From an uncultured Acidobacteriota bacterium (GTDB lineage: Bacteria > Acidobacteriota > Terriglobia > Terriglobales > Acidobacteriaceae): a stretch of 64,000 nucleotides of DNA. The DNA is taken from the NCBI GenBank assembly GCA_903873705.1, contig CAIQPK010000086.1, forward strand, positions 1 to 64,000, read 5' to 3'. Below the pieces are notes generated by a model, which worked only from the letters and a program-made list of their open reading frames with translations, did no database searches and had not been told where the DNA came from. Shown here piece after piece: positions 5,204-64,000 of this stretch (its first letter is position 1; every line of letters starts with the position of its first letter). Both the position numbers and the translations under genes were made by a program.

Positions 5204-5255
5204 GAACTCATGCTCTCCAGCTTTGGCCTTTGACGAGAAAACGAACGGCGGCGAG

Positions 5256-6680
5256 TCATTGCCGATGCTCCTGTACGAGCCTGAAATAGGGCCGATGAAT
5301 GGGCCAGCGACGCAGCAATACATCCAACAGGAACGCGGTGAGGACGCCGCTGTACAGGATTTTATTGAGCAAATATTGTTGCGGCCCGGCGCCTACGGCG
5401 AGAGCGGTAGTGCACATGTAGAAGAGACCGCAAACGTAGGCGAAAACCGTGAGGTCCGGAACCAGCGTGAGGAAGGGCACCAGCCACGCGACGTACCAGG
5501 GGTAGTGCGGCGAAAAGAGCAGCATCAGCGCGAGCGCCAGCGCGAAGGCGGGAACCAGAAAGCCGGCATCGGCAGGAAGGCCGAAGCGACGGATTTGCGC
5601 ACTGTCCGTTCGGACGGGCTGCGGTCGGCAGCACGTTCTCCAGCACCAGGCGACGAGTGCGGCGAAGATGAGCGCAGCAAAAACAAGATACGGTACGGTC
5701 GAAAGCTGATGAAGGCCCGGGGTGTGTTGCGCGAGTTCGAGGAGGAAGTAGCGCGCTCCGCTGTCCATCCCCTCTTCCTGCACGTAGCTTCCAAGGAAGC
5801 CAAAGACCCGGATGCCGACGCTGGAGTAACAACCGTAGCCGAGCGCAATGACGGCGGCGACCGTTGCGGGCATCTTGTATTCTCCGCGGCGAAAGAGTGC
5901 GGGCAGCAGAACGAGCGGATACATCTTGGTCATGATGGCGAGGCCCAGGAAGAGCCCGGTGAGGATCGGCTGCTTGCGGTAGCGCGACAGAAGAGCGAGC
6001 GCGATGAAGGCCATGGCGATGGAGTCGAGGTGGCCGGAGCTCCCGATCTCCCAGACGAGTAACGGGCACCACGCATAGAGCAGCGATTGCTCACGGCGGA
6101 TGCCGAGTTCGCGCAGGAATTTTATGAGGGCGTACAGGGTCAGGCCTTCGAAAAGAACCATCGCCGTTTTCATGAACGTCATCGTGGGGTTGATGAAGGT
6201 GATGACGTAGAAGAAGAGCTGCGCGACCGGCGGATAGATGGTATGGGCGTAGTCGCGGCGATTGATGTTGTCGAAGAGTTCCTGGTTCGGTTCGCGCAGA
6301 AACGAGAGGGCCGGATCACCGGGCACATAGCGGTAGGGCGAAATGCCGGCGTGCTGAACGACACCGTCCCAGGCATAACGGTAGATATCGGATGAGAGGT
6401 GCGGCGGCGGAAACAAGGTGACCAGGCGGAAGGCAACCGCAAAGGCGAGGATGATTCCGAAGGTGTAACGATCGACAGGCTGCGTGAGGATGATGATGAC
6501 GGCGAACGCGTAAAGGATGGCGGACCAGCCGGAAACGCCTGAAAAACCCATGGTGAAGTGGTCGAACTCGCTGACGAGTTGGCGCGTGAGAAGAAGTAGG
6601 CCCGACCCGATGAGGATCAGGGCGGCGTTGGTCTGCCATGGCCGTGCATGGCTCCAATGGCCAGGGCGTGTGAGCTTCAT
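5256..6680 (-). CDS. Polytopic membrane glycosyltransferase, GT87/mannosyltransferase-like
   Basis: A 474-residue protein with about 11 hydrophobic segments. The first luminal-type loop carries LSSDIYRYAWDGVVQHAGIS and PYRYVPGDP, the layout of GT-C enzymes (DUF2029/GT87) that use lipid-linked sugars. A later LLFSPHYPWYVAWLVPFL matches the conserved C-terminal motif. Its ATG overlaps the stop of the DUF2064 gene (ATGA), so translation is probably coupled. The GT2 next door could supply its polyprenyl-phosphate sugar donor. The acceptor is not evident. Confidence 0.75.
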   Translation of the reverse strand: MKLTRPGHWSHARPWQTNAALILIGSGLLLLTRQLVSEFDHFTMGFSGVSGWSAILYAFAVIIILTQPVDRYTFGIILAFAVAFRLVTLFPPPHLSSDIYRYAWDGVVQHAGISPYRYVPGDPALSFLREPNQELFDNINRRDYAHTIYPPVAQLFFYVITFINPTMTFMKTAMVLFEGLTLYALIKFLRELGIRREQSLLYAWCPLLVWEIGSSGHLDSIAMAFIALALLSRYRKQPILTGLFLGLAIMTKMYPLVLLPALFRRGEYKMPATVAAVIALGYGCYSSVGIRVFGFLGSYVQEEGMDSGARYFLLELAQHTPGLHQLSTVPYLVFAALIFAALVAWCWRTCCRPQPVRTDSAQIRRFGLPADAGFLVPAFALALALMLLFSPHYPWYVAWLVPFLTLVPDLTVFAYVCGLFYMCTTALAVGAGPQQYLLNKILYSGVLTAFLLDVLLRRWPIHRPYFRLVQEHRQ

Positions 6681-54890: not shown

Positions 54891-56000
54891 ATGCGGCCTA
54901 GCTTTTCGCTCGGGATTGAAGAGGAATATCAGACGATCGATCCGGTGACGCGCGATCTGCGCTCGCATATTGCGACGGAGATGCTGGCGCAGGGCAAGCT
55001 GCGGCTGGAAGAGCGCGTGAAGGCCGAGATGCACCAGTCGGTGATTGAGGTTGGCACGCGCATCTGCCTCAACATTGAAGAAGCCCGCGAAGATATCTAC
55101 GACCTCCGGCGCAACATGATTCATCTTGCCGAAGAAAACGGGCTGGTGCTGGTGGCTGGCGCGACGCATCCCTTTGCCGACTGGCGCGATCAGGAAATTT
55201 ATCCTGACCCTCGCTACGACAAGGTGGTCGAGGATCTGCAGCTGGTTGCTCGCGCTAACTTGATCTTCGGTCTGCATGTGCATGTGGGGATTGAAGACAA
55301 GGAAGATGCCATCCGGATTATGAATTCGCTGCGGTATTTTCTACCGCATATCCTGGCGCTTTCGACTAACTCGCCGTTCTGGCTGGGTATGGAGACGGGA
55401 TATAAGAGCTATCGCGCGAAAGTATTCGAAAACTTTCCTCGGACTAACCTGCCGGATACGTTTGCGAGTTACTCGGAGTTTGAGAATTACGTGAACCTGC
55501 TGATCAAGACCGGCAGTATCGATAACGCCAAGAAGATCTGGTGGGATGTGCGGCCGCATCCTTACTTCGACACGGTTGAGGTTAGGGTCTGCGATATTCC
55601 GCTGCGTGCGGAGGAAACCGTGGCGATTGCCGCGCTGATCCAGGCGACGGCGTGCAAACTGTGGAAGCTGCACGAGGGCAACCTTGATTTTCGCCAGTAT
55701 TCGCGGGCTTTGTTGATGGAGAACAAGTTTCGCGCGGTGCGCTACGGGTTGGATGGCAAGCTGATCGATTTTGGCAAGCAGGAAGAAGTGGATGAGCGCG
55801 ACCTGATCGGCGAGTATCTGGCTTTTATCGAGGACGTTATTCCTGAGTTGGAAAGCCGTGCCGCAATTGACACCATCACGCGGATGATGGAGATGGGTTC
55901 CGGAGCGGACCGGCAGCTGAAAGTTTTTCGTGAAACGGGCGATCTGAAAAAAGTCGTGGACTACATGGCCGAAGAGACACGCTTCGGCCTGGGCATCTAA
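54891..56000 (+). CDS. GCS2/YbdK family carboxylate-amine ligase
   Basis: 369 residues; GGAGG 5 nt before the ATG. FSLGIEEEYQTIDPVTRDLR is the GCS2 signature, GLVLVAGATHPFADWRDQEI the next motif, and FGLHVHVGIEDKEDAIRIMN holds metal and substrate residues. WWDVRPHPYFDTVEVRVCDI and the Arg-rich LPLRAEETVAIAAL-like region complete the fold. This glutamine-synthetase-like enzyme makes gamma-glutamyl-type or other amide bonds with ATP. Together with the neighbouring ATP-grasp it implies two successive amide-forming steps. Confidence 0.88.
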   Translation: MRPSFSLGIEEEYQTIDPVTRDLRSHIATEMLAQGKLRLEERVKAEMHQSVIEVGTRICLNIEEAREDIYDLRRNMIHLAEENGLVLVAGATHPFADWRDQEIYPDPRYDKVVEDLQLVARANLIFGLHVHVGIEDKEDAIRIMNSLRYFLPHILALSTNSPFWLGMETGYKSYRAKVFENFPRTNLPDTFASYSEFENYVNLLIKTGSIDNAKKIWWDVRPHPYFDTVEVRVCDIPLRAEETVAIAALIQATACKLWKLHEGNLDFRQYSRALLMENKFRAVRYGLDGKLIDFGKQEEVDERDLIGEYLAFIEDVIPELESRAAIDTITRMMEMGSGADRQLKVFRETGDLKKVVDYMAEETRFGLGI

Positions 56001-56041
56001 TCGGTAGTTGCAAAAATTGGAGTCTGAAAGGGCCGGAAATA

Positions 56042-57112
56042 GTGCAGAGCACCGAGGAAACTTCTAAGTCAGTTGAGATAACCGATCTGAGGACGGTCGC
56101 CTTTCCGCCTGAGTTCAGCGAGGGTGCGCGCAATGCCGTGACGACCTGTCTGCGGATTTCACCGGCCGAAAAGGTTACGGTCATTACCGATGAGCGCTGC
56201 CTGACGATCGCGGCATCGCTGGTAGCGGAGCTTGCGAAAATTGGCTGCGCATGGAATGCGTTTGTGCTTGAGGAGGTTGCCGAGCGGCCGCTGAATGGCA
56301 TGCCTCAGGTTGTGCTTGATGACATGGAGACGTCGCAGGTGAGCATCTTCGCCGTGCAGGTGCAGCCTAACGAACTGCGTTCGCGGATGGATATGACCGA
56401 CGTGGTGAATCGCCGCCACATGCGCCATGCACACATGGTCAACATCACGCCTGAAGTGATGGTTGAAGGTATGCGTGCGGACTTCAACGCGGTGGATCGA
56501 CTCAGCCAGGTTGTACTGGACAAGGTTCGCCAGGCTACTTATGTACGCGCCACGACGCCCGCAGGGACGGATATTCGAGCGGAACTGAACCCGGCTTATA
56601 AGTGGTTCAAAACGTCGGGCATTATCAGCCCGGAGAAGTGGGGCAACCTGCCAGGAGGTGAGTGTTTTACGGCGCCCGGAGAAGTAAACGGCGTGTTCGT
56701 GGTGGACGGCGTGGTCGGCGATTTTCTCTGTGCGCGCTACGGCATACTGCGCGAAACGCCACTGACGATTCAGATTGTGCGAAACCGGATGACTTCGGTG
56801 TCCTCCGATAACAAGCAGTTGGAGAAGGAATTCTGGAGCTATACGCACACCGATGAGAACTCCGACCGCGTGGGGGAGTTTGCGATTGGAACGAACATTG
56901 GGGTTTCGCGCGTGATCGGCAATATTCTGCAGGATGAAAAATTCCCGGGAATACATATTGCTTTCGGCGATCCCTATGGCGCGCACACCGGGGCGCAGTG
57001 GAAGTCGACCACGCACATCGACGTGGTGGGACTTTCGTTCAATATCTGGCTAGGCGGGCCGGAGGGCGAAGAACAGATCATGTGCGAAGGAAAGTTCCTG
57101 ATCGAGGCGTGA
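56042..57112 (+). CDS. M29-family aminopeptidase
   Basis: 356 residues from a GTG. AVTTCLRISPAEKVTVITDE is the M29 N-terminal domain. The catalytic part has LPGGECFTAPGEVNGVFVVD (metal Glu), DENSDRVGEFAIGTNIGVSR (metal Glu), IHIAFGDPYGAHTGAQW (metal His and Asp) and THIDVVGL. Thermophilic M29 enzymes are broad aminopeptidases. Embedded among amide ligases, this one may release or trim an amino-acid cap. Its TGA overlaps the next ATG by one base. Confidence 0.85.
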   Translation: MQSTEETSKSVEITDLRTVAFPPEFSEGARNAVTTCLRISPAEKVTVITDERCLTIAASLVAELAKIGCAWNAFVLEEVAERPLNGMPQVVLDDMETSQVSIFAVQVQPNELRSRMDMTDVVNRRHMRHAHMVNITPEVMVEGMRADFNAVDRLSQVVLDKVRQATYVRATTPAGTDIRAELNPAYKWFKTSGIISPEKWGNLPGGECFTAPGEVNGVFVVDGVVGDFLCARYGILRETPLTIQIVRNRMTSVSSDNKQLEKEFWSYTHTDENSDRVGEFAIGTNIGVSRVIGNILQDEKFPGIHIAFGDPYGAHTGAQWKSTTHIDVVGLSFNIWLGGPEGEEQIMCEGKFLIEA

Positions 57113-58353
57113 TGATTGAGAGCTATCGCAGGGACTTCAATGCTCGATTCACGCCCGGGAAGTACGCTGAGTTGCTGCGCCGTCTGGATGAGCAGACGAA
57201 GACCCACATTGAATTTCGCGTAGCAGAAACACCATGCTTCTTTCCGCGCGAATTGATGGAAGAAATGGTGCGCGCGGGAGTCGAACTGACGCACCAGCTA
57301 CTCGAGAACCCGGAGTACATGCGGCTCTCGGGCGCGTCTATTCCCGAAGAATTCCGCGTTCCGAACGAAGATAAGCATCCACATTTCATGACCGTTGATT
57401 TTGGCCTGGTGCGCGATGCCGCGGGAGCATTGCGGCCAAAGCTCGTCGAGATGCAGGCTTTTCCCTCGATCTTTGGTTATCAACCGCTGTTGGCGGAGCA
57501 CTATGTTTCCGTGTTTGGAGTGGACCCGAAGCTTGAATATTTTTTCGGTGGACTGGACGAAGCCGACTATTGGGAACTCATGCGCAAGGTGATCGTCGGA
57601 GAGAACGACCCTGCGAATGTGGTTCTCGCAGAGGTCGATCCCGAGCGCCAGAAGACGCTGCCGGACTTTCGGATGCATGAGCAGAAGCTGGGTATAAGGA
57701 CGGTGAACGTCCGCGAGTTGGTACAGGTGGGCCGCAAGCTGCACTACCTCGACGGCGCCCGACTGGTGCCGATCTATCGGATTTACAACCGGGTGATCGT
57801 GGACGAGCTCGAGCGCGAGGGCATTACGCTTCCGTTTGACTACCGCGACGACCTGGACGTGACGTGGGCCGGTCATCCGAACTGGTACTTCCGGATCAGC
57901 AAATTTTCAATCCCGTATCTGGACCACCCGACGGTGCCGGCGGCTGTGTTTCTGGACGACTGGTTTGCCGACAAGGGGCGTGACAAGCTGCCCGAGCGGC
58001 GCGAAGACTGGGTTTTTAAACCGCTGTACAGCTTTGCGGGCAAGGGCATCCAGTTTGGGCCGTCGGACGCCGACCTTGCGGCAATCCCGGTCGACCAGCG
58101 GCACAACTACCTGCTGCAGGAGCGGGTGCAGTTTGAGCCGGTGATTGCCACGCCGGAAGGCATGACGCAGGCAGAGGTCCGCATCCTGTACGTGTGGCCG
58201 GACGAGGGCCAGATGACGCCGATGACCAGCCTGGTGCGGATGGGCCGGGGCTTGATGATGGGGGTGGACCACAATCGCGACCGGACTTGGGTGGGCGGGT
58301 CGGCGGGACTGTTCCCAGGTGAATACGTGGCCGATTTGCCACAGGTCAAGTAG
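57112..58353 (+). CDS. ATP-grasp-like protein, last gene of the amidoligase operon
   Basis: 413 residues from the ATG at 57112, overlapping the peptidase stop by one base. The C-terminal third resembles an ATP-grasp: EDWVFKPLYSFAGKGIQFGP (Lys and Gly-rich loop), HNYLLQERVQFEPVIATPEG (Gln/Glu hinge), QAEVRILYVW and VRMGRGLMMG. The first 200 residues (FRVAETPCFFPRELMEEMVR, LRPKLVEMQAFPSIFGYQPL, and a DGARLVPIYRIYNRVIVDEL strand) have no assignment I can make. Likely a distinct, possibly permuted, carboxylate-amine ligase; I do not recognise a named family. Confidence 0.65.
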   Translation: MIESYRRDFNARFTPGKYAELLRRLDEQTKTHIEFRVAETPCFFPRELMEEMVRAGVELTHQLLENPEYMRLSGASIPEEFRVPNEDKHPHFMTVDFGLVRDAAGALRPKLVEMQAFPSIFGYQPLLAEHYVSVFGVDPKLEYFFGGLDEADYWELMRKVIVGENDPANVVLAEVDPERQKTLPDFRMHEQKLGIRTVNVRELVQVGRKLHYLDGARLVPIYRIYNRVIVDELEREGITLPFDYRDDLDVTWAGHPNWYFRISKFSIPYLDHPTVPAAVFLDDWFADKGRDKLPERREDWVFKPLYSFAGKGIQFGPSDADLAAIPVDQRHNYLLQERVQFEPVIATPEGMTQAEVRILYVWPDEGQMTPMTSLVRMGRGLMMGVDHNRDRTWVGGSAGLFPGEYVADLPQVK

Positions 58354-58365
58354 AATGCGTTCGGA

Positions 58366-58379
58366 GTTACTATAGTAAC
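58366..58379. promoter_or_regulatory. Perfect 14-bp palindrome, candidate operator
   Basis: GTTACTATAGTAAC is a perfect dyad 12 bp after the amidoligase operon and 37 bp before the PilZ gene. It contains a TATAGT that could be a -10 element, so protein binding would block or reshape a promoter here. No clear -35 was found. Confidence 0.45.
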
Positions 58380-58416
58380 AATCGCCCAGCAGAGCAGAGC
58401 AGAACAGAGGAGAGCG

Positions 58417-58752
58417 GTGTCCACTATCGATGGGTTAGTTCCGACAGATCCGGTACGAACGGCGGTGCGCTTCCCGCTCCATTTGAATGTCACCATTCTT
58501 TGGGAAAAGGGCGCGTTTGATGCGGTGACGGAAGATGTTTCCGCCAACGGCATTCTGTTTGAATCTGAGGTAAAGCCTCCCGTTGGCACAGTTGTGGAGT
58601 TCAAGCTGGCGATGCCGGCCGAGATTATGGGTGCACCCGAAGATGTTGTTCTGCACTGCAAAGGACGCATCGTACGGCACCAGGAACGCGATGGCCGGCA
58701 CCTGGTGGCCGCCGTCATTGAAGAATATTCACTAAAGGCTGAGCATTCATGA
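58417..58752 (+). CDS. PilZ-domain protein (c-di-GMP binding type)
   Basis: 111 residues from a GTG with AGGAGAG upstream. Both c-di-GMP motifs are intact: RTAVRFP (RxxxR, Arg14 and Arg18) and DVSANG (DxSxxG, residues 40-45), followed by the beta-barrel strand ILFESEVKPPVGTVVEFKLA and a second barrel half. It is a stand-alone PilZ. It overlaps the response regulator by ATGA, so the two are made together. Confidence 0.82.
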   Translation: MSTIDGLVPTDPVRTAVRFPLHLNVTILWEKGAFDAVTEDVSANGILFESEVKPPVGTVVEFKLAMPAEIMGAPEDVVLHCKGRIVRHQERDGRHLVAAVIEEYSLKAEHS

Positions 58753-59516
58753 GCGTTAACGAAACCACCGCACCGGGCCACTTCGAAGACATCGCCGACG
58801 ACACTGCCCAGCCGACGATCCGGATCATCCTCGCCGACTCGCAGGCAATCTATCGCGTGGGCATGCGGAAGATTTTTGCGCTCGAAGATGACATTCGCGT
58901 CGTTGCCCAGGCCGAAAATCTCGAGAACCTGTACGCTGCCCTGCAGCATTTTCCTGCCGACCTGGTGCTGCTGGAAGCGGCGCTGATTACGGGCACGACC
59001 GACGCGATACCCGAGTTTGTGCGGCGGGCTCCGGACGCCAAGCTGATTGTGCAGGTGTCGGATGCCGACGAGTCGAACACCGTGGAGCTCTATCGGCGCG
59101 GCGTGCGCGGCGTGGTGCCGCGGTCCATTTCGCCCGATCTGCTGATCAAGTGCGTGCGCAAGATTGCCGCTGGCGAAACGTGGATCGACAACAAGTCGAT
59201 CAGCTGGGTGATCGATGCCTACCGGGCACAGGCCACCAACCTGACCAATCCCAAGACGCAGCCCAAGCTTTCGCCCAAGGAGCTGTCCATCATCGGGTGC
59301 ATTACGCGGGGTATGCGCAATAAGGAAATCGCCTACCAGATCGGCACGACCGAGCAGGTGGTGAAGAACTACCTGCGCAAGATTTACGACAAGCTGGGTG
59401 TTTCTGACCGCCTGGAACTGGCGCTGTACTGCATGCACCACGAGACGCTGAAGAAGGACAACCCGATGAACGAGGCGCCGGTGCCGCTGGCAGCGCCCGC
59501 TCGCGGGAAGTCGTAG
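58749..59516 (+). CDS. NarL/LuxR-type response regulator with degenerate receiver
   Basis: 255 residues. The receiver (about 24-140) begins IRIILADSQAIYRVGMRKIF. The phospho-acceptor position reads ADLVLLEAALI, Glu76 instead of Asp, and the conserved Lys site reads GVVPRSIS, with Arg in place of Lys. The output domain (about 170-235) is a normal LuxR helix-turn-helix: LSPKELSIIGCITRGMRNKE then IAYQIGTTEQVVKNYLRKIY. An Asp-to-Glu change suggests phosphorylation-independent, possibly constitutive, activity. No histidine kinase is adjacent. Confidence 0.88.
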   Translation: MSVNETTAPGHFEDIADDTAQPTIRIILADSQAIYRVGMRKIFALEDDIRVVAQAENLENLYAALQHFPADLVLLEAALITGTTDAIPEFVRRAPDAKLIVQVSDADESNTVELYRRGVRGVVPRSISPDLLIKCVRKIAAGETWIDNKSISWVIDAYRAQATNLTNPKTQPKLSPKELSIIGCITRGMRNKEIAYQIGTTEQVVKNYLRKIYDKLGVSDRLELALYCMHHETLKKDNPMNEAPVPLAAPARGKS

Positions 59517-59594
59517 GTATCAGGCGCGAGCAACACGCGTCGCCGACCACCGCGCTGAAGGCTGGCCAGGCATCCAATGCAACGAGGGAAGCTT

Positions 59595-60350
59595 ATGTCC
59601 GCCGTCACTTCATCCCGCCTTCACGCCGCCGAACCTTACCTGATCCAGCAGGACTGGGCCGCCTATACGGCGGAGCAGCACGCGCTGTGGGCGGAACTGG
59701 TGACGCGCCGCCTGCCGCAGTTGCAGCAGCATGCCTGCGCTGAGTATCTCCAGGGCTTTGACCTGATCGGACTGCAGGCTGACCGGCTGCCTGACCTGAC
59801 TGCCGTGAGCGCGCGGCTACAGCCGAGGACCGGATGGCAGTCGACGCCGGTGAGCGGTTTTCTGCCGGCGGATGCGTTTTTCGAGATGCTGGCGGCGCGG
59901 ATGTTTCCGACGACGACGTGGATTCGCGGGCGCGAGTCGATGGAGTACACGCCGGAGCCGGACATTTTTCACGATGTTTTTGGCCACGTGCCGATGCATG
60001 CGCACCCGGTGTTTGCGGACTTCCTGGAGCACTACGGAAAGGTGTGCGCGTCGTTGACCGACCCGTTGGCGCTGGAGCGGATGGGGCGGCTGTTCTGGTT
60101 TACGGTGGAGTTCGGCGTCATCCGCGAAAAGGGTGCGATCAAGGTCTATGGGTCGGGGCTGATCTCGTCGCACGGCGAGTGCACGCACGTAGTGGAGCAT
60201 GGCGAAGGGCTGGAGATTCGCGACTTCGACATTGAGCGCGTACTGGAAGAGCCGGTGGATACGGGCAACATGCAGAAGGTGCTGTACGCGATTGAGTCAT
60301 TCGACCAGATTTATGAAGCGGCGCGTGAGGCGGAGTCGCGGCTGGGATAA
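59595..60350 (+). CDS. phhA: Phenylalanine-4-hydroxylase
   Basis: 251 residues from the ATG at 59595 (GAGGGAAG upstream); an ATG at 59577 lacks a ribosome-binding site. The iron ligands are visible: FHDVFGHVPMHAHPVFADFL gives His126 and His131, and LFWFTVEFGVIREKG gives Glu172. SGLISSHGECTHVVE forms the pterin pocket. It lacks a regulatory ACT domain, as usual for bacterial enzymes. It converts Phe to Tyr with tetrahydropterin and oxygen. No pterin-4a-carbinolamine dehydratase gene is adjacent. Confidence 0.93.
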   Translation: MSAVTSSRLHAAEPYLIQQDWAAYTAEQHALWAELVTRRLPQLQQHACAEYLQGFDLIGLQADRLPDLTAVSARLQPRTGWQSTPVSGFLPADAFFEMLAARMFPTTTWIRGRESMEYTPEPDIFHDVFGHVPMHAHPVFADFLEHYGKVCASLTDPLALERMGRLFWFTVEFGVIREKGAIKVYGSGLISSHGECTHVVEHGEGLEIRDFDIERVLEEPVDTGNMQKVLYAIESFDQIYEAAREAESRLG

Positions 60351-60382
60351 TTACGGGCCAGGGCGTTATAGGGGAGGACGCG

Positions 60383-61210
60383 GTGTTGGGGCCTCTGGGA
60401 AAGTTCTTTGCCATCACATTCGCGGTGACCTGGACATGCTTCTTTGTCGCGATGGGCCTTGTTCATGCAGCACAACTGAGCGGACAGGAGATAGGGCCAG
60501 TTCCCGGGCTGCTGGTGTTTGCCGGGACTGTTGCACCAGCCTTCCTAGCGTTGATCATCTCTTCGCGCAACGGCGGGATACCGCTTCTGTCGCAAAGGCG
60601 ATTCGAGTGGAGAGTGGCGGCGCGATGGTATGGTTTCGCGCTCGGTTACATGGCGGCGATCAGGTTGGTTGTGGCGTTTCTGGAGCGCGTCATAACGGGT
60701 TCCTGGCCTGGCGTGGAGAGCGCGCCGGCCGGTGCCTTGCTGGTAGCCATCATCATTTCAACCCCGTTCCAGGCAGGTGAAGAGATTGGATGGCGGGGCT
60801 ACGCGCTCCCGCGTCTTGCAGAACGCATCGGGATAAGTTGGGCGAGTGTGGTGCTGGGGATGATCTGGGCGCTGTGGCACCTGCCGCTGTTCTTCCTCGC
60901 GCTGCCGGGCAACGCTGAGTACGGAAGCTCCTTTCCCCTGTGGGCATGGGGTGTGACGGCGTTGTCGGTCGCCTTTGCGTGGCTATATGTGCGTACCGGG
61001 GGGAGCCTGCTGCTCACCATGGTGATGCACTCCGCGGTGAACAACATGCCGCACTTTCAGTCGCCGTCCGCTGCCGGAGTGCAGAACGTCTTTTCGTTGC
61101 ATGGTCCACTCTCATTGTGGCTGACGGCTGTGTGCCTGTGGGGCTGCGCGCTCTATTTTCTGTACCGGATGAGGTTCATGAAGCCGCCGTCGGAAGGGGT
61201 AATCCCCTAG
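60383..61210 (+). CDS. CPBP family intramembrane metalloprotease (Abi-type)
   Basis: 275 residues, about eight membrane helices, GTG start with GGAGG upstream. The three CPBP motifs are present: GEEIGWRGYALPRLAERIG (EExxxR), MIWALWHLPLFFL (FxxxH-like, His) and MVMHSAVNNMP (HxxxN). Homologues include Rce1-like CAAX proteases and bacteriocin self-immunity proteins. Function here is open; it is a single gene. Confidence 0.88.
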   Translation: MLGPLGKFFAITFAVTWTCFFVAMGLVHAAQLSGQEIGPVPGLLVFAGTVAPAFLALIISSRNGGIPLLSQRRFEWRVAARWYGFALGYMAAIRLVVAFLERVITGSWPGVESAPAGALLVAIIISTPFQAGEEIGWRGYALPRLAERIGISWASVVLGMIWALWHLPLFFLALPGNAEYGSSFPLWAWGVTALSVAFAWLYVRTGGSLLLTMVMHSAVNNMPHFQSPSAAGVQNVFSLHGPLSLWLTAVCLWGCALYFLYRMRFMKPPSEGVIP

Positions 61211-61220
61211 CCTTCCGTTC

Positions 61221-61249
61221 TTGACCTCAGTGACCGCTGCGGCTATGCT
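61221..61249 (+). promoter_or_regulatory. Sigma-70 promoter of the sulfite reductase operon
   Basis: TTGACC (61221-61226), a 17-bp spacer, TATGCT (61244-61249). The expected start, 7 bp past the -10, is position 61256, which is the G of the GTG that opens the Cys leader ORF. This makes the leader ORF leaderless. Confidence 0.75.
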
Positions 61250-61255
61250 CGAAGG

Positions 61256-61330
61256 GTGAGCTTTGTATCCACTACCGCAGCCTGTTGTCCTCGCCTTGGC
61301 GCCCAGGGACCCGCTGCTGTTGCTCACTGA
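61256..61330 (+). CDS. Leaderless Cys-containing leader peptide of the sulfite reductase operon
   Basis: A 24-codon ORF with GTG start and TGA at 61328-61330, reading MSFVSTTAACCPRLGAQG then PAAVAH. Codons 10 and 11 are tandem Cys (TGTTGT at 61283-61288). The GTG sits at the predicted transcription start, and GAAGG directly abuts it, too close to act as a ribosome-binding site, so initiation would be leaderless. It is followed 35 bp later by a strong intrinsic terminator and then by the reductase gene. This is the layout of ribosome-mediated attenuation by cysteine supply. Related leaderless poly-Cys ORFs are known in mycobacteria; I know of none in Acidobacteria. Confidence 0.65.
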   Translation: MSFVSTTAACCPRLGAQGPAAVAH

Positions 61331-61364
61331 CCATCGAGCCCATAGCAACGCCCAACACCCCAGC

Positions 61365-61393
61365 GCCCACGAAAATCGTGGGCTTTTTATTTT
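61365..61393 (+). terminator. Attenuator terminator before the sulfite reductase gene
   Basis: GCCCACG (61365-61371), loop AAAAT, CGTGGGC (61377-61383), then TTTTTATTTT. It lies 12 bp before the ATG at 61406 and downstream of the promoter of the same operon, so readthrough must be regulated. An alternative pairing is possible: GGCGC at 61298-61302, just behind the Cys codons, can pair with GCGCC at 61363-61367, which covers the start of the terminator stem. A side hairpin GTTGCT/AGCAAC lies at 61319-61349. Confidence 0.8.
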
Positions 61394-61405
61394 GAACGGA
61401 GACAC

Positions 61406-63136
61406 ATGAGCGACACACCGAATCCCGCCGCGGCCGTAGCCAAGGCTCCCAAGGAAACCAAGGCGCAGCGTTCCGAGCGTTTGAAGCTCGCCAAGAACCC
61501 CTGGGAGGCGTGGCAGGAGGTGCGCGAGTTTGCGAAGCAGGGACGCGAGAGCGTGCTGCCGGAGTGGGCGAATCTCTACTTCAAGTGGTGGGGGGTTTAC
61601 ACGCAGGGCGACGGCATTGGCGTAACCGGCGGCAAGGACGGCGAAGGCAAGACGACCGAGTACTTCATGATGCGCATCGGGCTGCCCAACGGCCTGCTGA
61701 GCGCGCACCAGCTGCACGTGATCGCCGACATTACCGAAAAATACGGGCAGGGCGTGGCCGACATTACGACGCGGCAGAACATCCAGCTGCACTGGCTGAC
61801 GATCGAGTCGATGCCGGAAGTGGTGGACTTGCTGACGGAGATTGGCCTTTCGCCCAAGGGTGCTTGCGGCGACGTGGTGCGCAACGTGACGGGCTGCCCG
61901 CTGGCGGGTCTCGATGGACATGAGCTCGTGGATGCTTCGCCGCTCGCGGTGGATATCGCCCGCGTGCTGACGGCGAATCCGGAGTTCTACAACCTGCCGC
62001 GCAAGTTCAAAATCTCGGTGACGGGCTGCCCACTGTGGTGCTCGTACCCAGAGATTAACGACGCCGCGCTCACCGCGCTGAAGCGGGTGAAGGACGGCAA
62101 GGAAGAGATTGGTTACAGCCTGCGCGTGGGCGGCGGGCTTTCGAGCGAGCCGCACCTGGCGGTTCGTCTGAACGCGTTCATCCCGCAGGACAAGGCGCTG
62201 GAGGCGGTGATTGCCGTCTGCCGCGTCTTCCGCGAGCAGGATGCGCTACGCGAGAGTCGCACTCATGCCCGGATCAAGTACCTCTTTATGAAGCATGGCT
62301 GGACTGCGGAGACGATGCTCGCGGCGATTGAACAGAAGCTGGGCTACACGTTTGACCCGGCGGACGAAGGCCCGATTGTGGATGATGTGTATCGCGACCA
62401 TGTGGGTGTGCGCGCCCAGAAACAGGAAGGCCTGAGCTCGATTGGAGCGACGGTGTTGAACGGGCGGCTCAACCCACTGCAGCTGCATGAGCTCGCGATG
62501 CTGTCAGAGAAGTATGGCAACGGCCACCTGCGCGCCACGATCATGCAGAACATCGTGCTGGTGAACATTCCGAACGCCAAGGTGCCGGAGGTGGTGGAAG
62601 CGATCACCGCCTTGGGCCTGCAGGTTGAGCCGACGGTGTTCTATCGCGGCGCGATTGCCTGCACGGGTACCGAGTTCTGCAAGCTGGCGATTGCCGAGAC
62701 GAAGGGCTTCGCAAAGTGGCTGGTGGGCGAGATGGAGGAGCGGATTCCGGGCTTCGATCAACAGATCAAGCTGCATGTGACCGGCTGCACCAACAGTTGC
62801 GGACAGAGCTGGATTGCGGACATCGGGCTCGAAGGCAAGAAGATCAAGAAGGACGGCAAGACGGTCGACGCCTTCTACTTCTGCGTTGGCGGAGCAGTGG
62901 GTGCTCAAGCGCGTATTGCGCGGCAGATTGGGTATCGTGCTGCCGCGGAGGATTGCCCGGAGGCGATCGAGCGGCTGCTGCGCGGGTATCTGGCGCGACG
63001 GACGCAGGGCGAAGATCTGCGCTCGTACTTTGCCCGCACCACGGACGAAACGCTGCGCGCGGATCTTGCCGGCGCGGTCGTTGAGCCGGTGGAGCGCGAT
63101 GCGGCGCCGGGACGCGTTCCGGCGAGTGTGGGTTAG
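61406..63136 (+). CDS. Ferredoxin-type sulfite/nitrite reductase (siroheme, 4Fe-4S)
   Basis: 576 residues; GGAG 4 nt before the ATG. It has the two-fold repeated siroheme reductase fold: TEYFMMRIGLPNGLLSAHQL, ADITTRQNIQLHWLTIE, RNVTGCPLAG and FKISVTGCPLWCS in the first half; GHLRATIMQNIVLVNIPNAK in the second. The cluster/siroheme ligands are ACTGTEFCKLA (C-x5-C) and TGCTNSCGQ (C-x3-C). Sulfite versus nitrite cannot be settled by eye, but the Cys leader and the siroheme genes behind it favour sulfite assimilation to cysteine. Confidence 0.88.
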   Translation: MSDTPNPAAAVAKAPKETKAQRSERLKLAKNPWEAWQEVREFAKQGRESVLPEWANLYFKWWGVYTQGDGIGVTGGKDGEGKTTEYFMMRIGLPNGLLSAHQLHVIADITEKYGQGVADITTRQNIQLHWLTIESMPEVVDLLTEIGLSPKGACGDVVRNVTGCPLAGLDGHELVDASPLAVDIARVLTANPEFYNLPRKFKISVTGCPLWCSYPEINDAALTALKRVKDGKEEIGYSLRVGGGLSSEPHLAVRLNAFIPQDKALEAVIAVCRVFREQDALRESRTHARIKYLFMKHGWTAETMLAAIEQKLGYTFDPADEGPIVDDVYRDHVGVRAQKQEGLSSIGATVLNGRLNPLQLHELAMLSEKYGNGHLRATIMQNIVLVNIPNAKVPEVVEAITALGLQVEPTVFYRGAIACTGTEFCKLAIAETKGFAKWLVGEMEERIPGFDQQIKLHVTGCTNSCGQSWIADIGLEGKKIKKDGKTVDAFYFCVGGAVGAQARIARQIGYRAAAEDCPEAIERLLRGYLARRTQGEDLRSYFARTTDETLRADLAGAVVEPVERDAAPGRVPASVG

Positions 63137-63138
63137 CG

Positions 63139-63855
63139 ATGAGCCTGTTTCCGATCTTCATGAAGCTCGCCGGTAAGCCTTGCGTCGTCATCGGCGCCGG
63201 AAATATCGCTGAGTCGAAGATCGAGAGCCTGCTGCAGGCTGAGGCGCGGGTCACGGTGATCGCACCGGAAGCGTTGCCGCGCGTGGCCGCGTGGGCCGAG
63301 GGTGGCGATATCACCTGGGAGCAGCGCGAGTATGTTGCAGGCGACCTTGCCGGGGCCTTCCTGGTGGTGGCGGCGACGGCGACGGCGGCGGTGAATCGCG
63401 CGGTCTTTGCCGAGGCGGCTGTGGCGGACATTCTCTGCAATGCCGTTGATGATCCACCGTACTGCGATTTTTATTTTCCGTCGGTAGTGCGCCGGGGCGA
63501 ACTGCAGATTGCGATTTCGACCGCTGGCGAAAGCCCGGCCTTTGCGCAGCGTTTGCGCAAAGAACTTAATGCGCAGCTGCCGCAGGACCTGGGCGAATGG
63601 CTGATGGAGCTGGGGCGGCTACGGCGAGAGGTGACGGCGGTAGAGCCTATCGGCGAGCCTCGGAAAATGCTGCTGCATGAGCTGGCACAGCGCGATGTTT
63701 GCGGCTACGACCGGTGTCCTTCGCGGTTGAGAGCGCGTGAACATGCGGTAGTGCATGGGTTCGTGCCGGCGCCGACGTTTCCCATGTCCGAGAATCCGGA
63801 CATGGGGCACCCGGTGGTGGGTACAGGTAACGCTGTCGACGAGGTGAGCAAGTGA
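63139..63855 (+). CDS. Precorrin-2 dehydrogenase/sirohydrochlorin ferrochelatase
   Basis: 238 residues, 2 bp after the reductase stop. [20 protein letters not shown] is the family start with the NAD-binding GAGN, then [36 protein letters not shown] with the catalytic Asp region, and [20 protein letters not shown]. This matches the Met8p/CysG N-terminal module. The last 60 residues ([20 protein letters not shown] onward) are an extra tail not typical of the module. It makes siroheme for the reductase. Confidence 0.9.
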
Positions 63856-64000
63856 TACGCGCGGAGAAGGGGACGGTCTATCTCGTCGGTGCAGGGCCGG
63901 GTGATCCGGAGTTGTTGACCGTACGTGCGCTGCGGTTGCTGGAGCAGGCGGACGTGGTGTTCCACGATGATCTGGTGCCCGATGCGACGCTGGCGCTGGT
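63852..64000 (+). CDS. cobA: Uroporphyrinogen-III C-methyltransferase, 5' part
   Basis: Starts at GTG 63852 overlapping the previous stop (GTGA) and runs off the right edge. The visible 49 residues include [20 protein letters not shown] and [17 protein letters not shown], the exact start of SUMT (CobA/CysG C-terminal) enzymes. It methylates uroporphyrinogen III to precorrin-2, the substrate of the preceding enzyme. Confidence 0.93.

Follow-up and report, generated by a model that had tools for sequence, protein, structure and literature searches.

Polycysteine leaderless short open reading frames (ORFs) of mycobacteria are reportedly the subject of Canestrari et al. 2020 (doi 10.1111/mmi.14498). 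The initial annotation of the locus analysed here had pointed to such ORFs, and this was borne out: leaderless short ORFs with contiguous Cys codons precede mycobacterial cysteine-metabolism operons and are described, in the portions of the two papers available to us, as translational attenuators (PMC13236596, PMC9031893). Leader ORFs with Cys runs near the stop codon also precede cys operons of Mycobacterium and Propionibacterium, where, in the accessible part of the source, terminators are absent and Rho was proposed (Seliverstov et al. 2005, PMC1262725). In Rhodobacterales, uORFC-8-2 before cysS consists of a tandem-Cys short ORF followed by an intrinsic terminator, and transcription attenuation was proposed in the available text (a survey of the Brewer et al. 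type, PMC8632094). Leaderless leader ORFs with Rho-independent terminators are represented, as far as the excerpts of these sources go, by leuL2 and trpL1 of Streptomyces lividans (PMC8079986), and a further leaderless case is trpL of Sinorhizobium meliloti (PMC7298713). Attenuators predicted in Acidobacteria were left almost without assigned function in the part of the relevant study at hand (Naville and Gautheret 2010, PMC2965389). In line with the initial annotation, no description of such a leader in Acidobacteria was found in the literature searched, which covered few subscription papers.

We analysed a window of 64,000 nucleotides, the whole stretch of DNA under study from a soil acidobacterium, and propose that positions 61221–61405 very probably act in ribosome-mediated transcription attenuation that responds to cysteine by means of a leaderless leader ORF. 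As far as the accessible portions of the cited papers allow comparison, this sirA leader resembles the mycobacterial polycysteine ORFs in its predicted leaderless start, in its contiguous Cys codons and in the presence of such leaders before several operons per genome, the mycobacterial response being put down to ribosome speed on Cys codons; unlike those translational systems, it possesses an intrinsic terminator before the gene, belongs to another phylum and carries its Cys codons in the middle of the ORF. Because of this terminator we do not class it with the mycobacterial attenuators, although the two are alike in sensing. A second leader of the same genome, before cysDNH (described below), is closer to the mycobacterial kind, with Cys codons beside the stop and no terminator, and is also similar to the leaders of Seliverstov et al. 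2005 (PMC1262725) in the position of its Cys codons near the stop, whereas the sirA leader differs from these by its terminator. Like uORFC-8-2, the sirA leader is a short ORF with Cys codons in tandem and a terminator behind it, but uORFC-8-2 belongs to cysS of Alphaproteobacteria, is dominated by UGC and has no mention of leaderlessness in its available description, while the sirA leader precedes a siroheme reductase and is dominated by TGT. The likeness to leuL2, trpL1 and trpL lies in a transcript start at the leader's start codon (predicted for the sirA leader), regulatory codons and transcription attenuation; those leaders use Leu or Trp codons in Actinobacteria and Alphaproteobacteria, whereas the codons here are Cys. 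Each ingredient is known elsewhere, and judging by the sequence it is at this locus that a leaderless start, Cys codons and an intrinsic terminator come together. If true, the proposal would extend attenuation by cysteine codons to a phylum in which hardly any predicted attenuator had been assigned a function.

All features of the leader lie on the forward strand. The promoter, with equivalents in relatives, consists of a -35 element TTGACC (61221–61226), a 17-nt spacer and a -10 element TATGCT (61244–61249), and is the sole promoter-like site in 60900–61500 (shuffle mean 0.1). Six nucleotides separate the -10 element from the GTG at 61256, the predicted start of both the transcript and a putatively translated ORF of 24 codons that is kept in relatives (61256–61330; MSFVSTTAACCPRLGAQGPAAVAH); its codons 10–11 are TGT TGT (61283–61288), and relatives' leaders also contain Cys-Cys. 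The coordinates and codons of promoter, start and ORF hold as initially annotated. A GC-rich terminator before the reductase ATG is also present, its stem being of 8 pairs, not 7 as annotated: it is formed by GCCCACGA-AAA-TCGTGGGC at 61365–61383 (-13.2 kcal/mol, z -5.3) and is followed by the T-run TTTTTATTTT (61384–61393), so that the whole element, recognisable in sequence, fold and relatives, spans 61365–61393. The promoter sits between this terminator and the end, at 61210, of an upstream CPBP/CAAX-protease-like gene (match below the model's cut-off). No Rfam 15 covariance model (riboswitch, T-box or S-box) matched at E up to 1 in 55000–64000 on both strands, by which a riboswitch or T-box identity was rejected, and the 24-aa leader peptide matched no NCBIfam model at E up to 1.

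The gene directly behind the leader (61406–63136) encodes, by profile and structure-relative matches, a siroheme reductase of SirA/NirA type of 576 aa. It is followed by a siroheme gene of CysG N-terminal (precorrin-2 dehydrogenase) type (63139–63855; TIGR01470 above its cut-off) and by a third gene on the same strand, of which only the start lies in the window (63852–64000) and whose ORF, in L115, reaches ~64655 on the contig; from its N-terminal motif we take this to be probably a uroporphyrinogen-III methyltransferase. The reductase matches NirA and related models, all below their cut-offs, and the nearest relative with a solved structure is 1zj8 of M. tuberculosis, whose deposited name is 'probable ferredoxin-dependent nitrite reductase NirA' and which we assume to be the protein described as sulfite reductase SirA. 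Aligned with 1zj8, the reductase shares two residues, Tyr in WWGxYTQ and Cys in ACGD, presumably those of SirA's cross-link; the position of the latter is not Cys in nitrite reductase 3b0h, suggesting that sulfite is the likely substrate. The annotated label 'sulfite reductase' is therefore retained as to the siroheme reductase of SirA/NirA type and qualified as to its substrate, the nearest structure being deposited as NirA. A Cys leader before such genes would in turn lend indirect support to sulfite reduction by these NirA/SirA-type proteins.

Homologous upstream regions were collected from the best 80 of 200 relatives in a scan of named genomes and from a second source, in which 61 genomes were searched, 54 had a match and 30 loci were obtained, the window's own included. 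After removal of 17 of 110 loci as duplicates (same last 200 nt upstream as another), 93 remained, of which 90 were counted; L009, L016 and L067 were left out because their upstream sequence is shorter than 250 nt. A tandem-Cys short ORF was defined as 10–45 codons with tandem Cys codons, and was called leaderless when a promoter with at least 8/12 matches lay 5–8 nt before its start; dinucleotide shuffles and 5980 overlapping stretches, taken on both strands from other parts of these loci, served as controls. In this set, which is biased to close relatives, 82 of the 90 regions possess a tandem-Cys short ORF (14.4 per 90 in shuffles), and the full layout of promoter, leaderless start and tandem Cys was found in 65 (0.05 per 90 expected from shuffles). 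Among the control stretches, 609/5980 contained the ORF alone and 5/5980 the full layout; a rescan reduced the latter to 4 distinct ORFs, including the genuine leader of L066, a locus whose reductase start the script had misplaced. Inspection by eye brought the number of real leaders to 81/90 (82 minus L048 and L053, plus L066). The leader layout is far beyond chance.

To avoid circularity, ORFs were also chosen without the Cys criterion, by promoter and start alone, and Cys-Cys was in frame in 61/63 of them, compared to 4/63 and 8/63 in the other frames. Of 71 loci, 33 have a gap of 6 nt between the -10 element and the start, and 27 have one of 7 nt (60/71 at 6–7 nt); the mean for the same gap in S. 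lividans is 6.3 nt in the accessible part of the source (PMC8079986), and a 6–7-nt gap fits a transcription start on the leader's start codon. The Cys codons of the leaders are TGT in 228/345 cases, versus 77/742 in the reductase genes of the same loci. Behind the leader, the script detected a terminator with a T-run in 79/84 tandem-Cys loci, or in 77/81 once L048, L051 and L053 are excluded as chance ORFs by eye. In three of the script's four misses (L006, L019 and L041) the reductase start had been placed inside or before the terminator, which is present on reading, raising the count to 80/81; in L046 neither script nor reading revealed a terminator between leader and reductase.

The alignment check proposed with the initial annotation thus supported it, in that Acidobacteriaceae keep the Cys codons, the leaderless spacing and the terminator. 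Lack of Cys conservation in relatives, named there as a refuting outcome, did not occur, and Cys-rich leaders extend to a second family of the order, where all eight fetched SirA-type loci with more than 1 kb upstream carry a Cys-rich short ORF, five of them leaderless by the scan rule. Nothing convincing was found upstream of L130 (34% identical), and the upstream region of L131 ends at 259 nt; the single locus from another family of the class (L126) showed no leader, nor did the paralogues or second copies L125, L128 and L129. Within Acidobacteriaceae, leaders were not found at L034, L048, L050 (Terriglobus roseus), L051, L053, L065 and L070. Two of the paralogues or second copies, the second PF01077 gene of the genome under study (C48, L128) and the G002 paralogue (L129), had been considered as leader-bearing and were rejected. 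Genome G004 has two SirA-type genes, L125 (C58) and L101 (C87), and the Cys leader is present only at the C87 copy. At L047 and L061, leaderless ORFs occupy the same position and have lost the Cys pair, one Cys being left in each; they may be regarded as natural cases of a decayed sensor.

According to the proposed mechanism, the polymerase would start on the GTG at 61256 and a ribosome would load at the 5' end of the mRNA. With ample Cys-tRNA, it would reach the stop at 61330 and cover the second half of the ORF, so that the stem at 61365–61383 could form and transcription would end before the reductase. Under a shortage of Cys-tRNA, it would instead pause at codons 10–11 and block a predicted protector (1:2) hairpin that starts within the second Cys codon (61287–61310), freeing GGCGC at 61298–61302; the latter, a candidate antiterminator 5' segment, would pair with GCGCC at 61363–61367 before the 3' arm of the terminator is made, and the polymerase would enter the reductase/siroheme operon. 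Cysteine would accordingly act as the signal through the charging of its tRNA.

Predicted folds are consistent with parts of this scheme. The free leader folds into the 61287–61310 hairpin and the terminator (minimum-energy fold of 61256–61392), the leader as a whole being no more stable than its shuffles (z -1.0). If a ribosome occupies the Cys codons while the terminator 3' arm is still to be made, 61298–61302 is predicted to pair with 61363–61367, and this pairing closes the minimum-energy fold of 61298–61372 (-23.6 kcal/mol, z -2.1, 4/200 shuffles as good). The alternative pairing put forward initially exists, but it overlaps the 5' arm of the terminator by only 3 bases (GCC, 61365–61367), and full-length folds with the ribosome at the Cys codons kept the window terminator in 8/8 cases, which means that the switch would have to be kinetic, decided during transcription.

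When the second half of the ORF is paired with the pre-terminator/terminator arm, the mean energy over 77 leaders is -14.91 kcal/mol, compared to -12.87 (sd 0.31) for shuffled ORF halves and -13.34 (sd 0.29) for mismatched loci, with 0/50 as good in each control. In the Granulicella-type loci L014, L015, L018, L101 and L105, the terminator arm back-pairs into the ORF with a probability of just 0.08. A hairpin 10–21 nt after the Cys codons covaries in an alignment of 20 leaders (0/500 shuffles reach the score), a signal that may reflect few events since many rows are close kin; the window's own hairpin at 61287–61310 uses nearby but other columns. For the antiterminator, no fixed-column covariation above shuffles was detected in the 20-leader alignment, in which its pairing is 71–72% in register versus 20–59% when slid; in a second clade of nine leaders the figures are 88.7% and 20–52%, with one compensatory pair. 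Predicted from pairing energy, not from column covariation, the antiterminator is moderately backed. Behind the stop codon, the nine leaders of this second clade, A2 (L056, L059, L060, L063, L064, L073, L080, L113 and L068), have a hairpin of 9 bp (CCTGGGTC.../...ATCCACGG, columns 39–47 with 67–76), which is kept inside the predicted antiterminator.

These data bear unequally on three other explanations. A leaderless Cys leader could act mainly via Rho-dependent termination or control of reductase translation, the hairpin being of little regulatory weight. The mycobacterial Cys leaders are, in the accessible text, reported to be translational (PMC13236596, PMC9031893) or suspected of Rho dependence (PMC1262725), the cysDNH leader of the same genome has no evident intrinsic terminator, and the support for the antiterminator is moderate; yet the retention of a stem and T-run ahead of the reductase in 77/81 loci by script, or 80/81 with reading, renders this outlet improbable. 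Considerably less probable is that the ORF encodes a small Cys-rich peptide with a metal- or redox-related function of its own, its place before the reductase reflecting operon membership. In-frame enrichment of Cys is strong and some leaders have up to nine Cys, as such a peptide might, but little besides the Cys pairs is kept between the leader peptides of different clades, the rare TGT codon is preferred in leaders, and the terminator separates the ORF from the reductase.

The remaining explanation, that a promoter of the ordinary kind, an ORF arising by chance and the upstream gene's own terminator happen to adjoin, might draw on the frequency of the tandem-Cys ORF alone in control stretches and on the direction of the longest upstream frame, which is the same as that of the reductase in 45/76 loci; against it, this frame is opposite in 13/76 (18 being unclear), and the promoter lies between the upstream gene end and the terminator. 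Upstream-gene orientation was set aside as a weak control. It is the full layout (65/90) and the in-frame Cys-Cys (61/63) by which the chance explanation is practically refuted. Ribosome-mediated attenuation by tandem Cys codons, as initially suggested, is supported by the Cys codons, leaderless spacing and terminator conserved in Acidobacteriaceae.

The second leaderless Cys leader of the genome lies on another contig (L143:5646-5696; G000:C3) and reads TTGCGG-18-TATCAT-6-ATG, with the peptide MGPLMPTRCPQLSGCC* and Cys codons that abut the stop. It precedes an operon (L143:5845-9097) with PF01507 matches in its first and third genes, which we take to be cysD-cysN-cysH; no convincing intrinsic terminator was found after this leader. 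A cysD-type first gene was found in 34 of 51 genomes searched, from which 30 loci were obtained. In nine of these, no convincing intrinsic terminator accompanies such a leader; in five (L169, L171–L174), a very Cys-rich leader, such as MVFSRTFANTSCCSCCCQACICGCACCR, is followed by one. Among the other 16, possible leaders were seen at L160 and L175 and nothing convincing at the remainder. Pooled over the nine terminator-less leaders, the first 80 nt behind the stop are rich in C (C 264, G 143; L155 alone even), which, as a suggestion only, would suit Rho; no conserved fold was found after their stops (RNAalifold -0.67 kcal/mol). A scan of other cysteine genes of the genome (promoter score at least 7, gap 5–8 nt, Cys-Cys; weaker promoters escape this rule) revealed no leader at the PALP (cysK-type) or cysS loci, one short Cys-Cys ORF lying ~300 nt before a cysS match without promoter-like spacing; SATase_N and Sulfate_transp had no match in this genome.

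These observations raise the possibility, to which we give slightly less than even weight, of a cysteine ribulon in Acidobacteriaceae that would operate without a dedicated regulator. Leaderless Cys ORFs before cysDNH and the sirA-siroheme operon, the two halves of sulfate assimilation, would read the same charged tRNA-Cys yet act through different outlets. At sirA the outlet would be an intrinsic terminator; at cysDNH it would, in part of Granulicella, be C-rich, devoid of a terminator and of Rho-type or translational nature, with a terminator replacing it in other species; TGT would be kept over the common TGC for a sharper response. Two Cys leaders with seemingly different outlets in one genome would allow the splitting of one charged-tRNA signal to be tested by single-codon changes.

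Finally, a covariance model was built from 20 Granulicella-type leaders (alignment A1 was made without L109, L111, L107 and L020, members of the first Granulicella-type set). It matches 25 of 28 genus genomes, each directly before the reductase, a position that is partly by construction. Of the three others, G027 has a leader by ORF scan (L020/L108), the contig of G011 ends 82 nt upstream, and the reductase match of G019 is just 32%. A second match was given by G025 alone among the 28, absence elsewhere being incomplete because just 147 of 625–2107 first-look candidates per genome were scored. This orphan sirA-type leader copy (L202 ~5242-5340, minus strand; G025:C41:215242-215338), consisting of MSFLPTALCCLRLGIEALASAAG and a terminator, lies upstream of sugar-isomerase-like and oxidoreductase-like genes and may be a relic from a move of the reductase operon.
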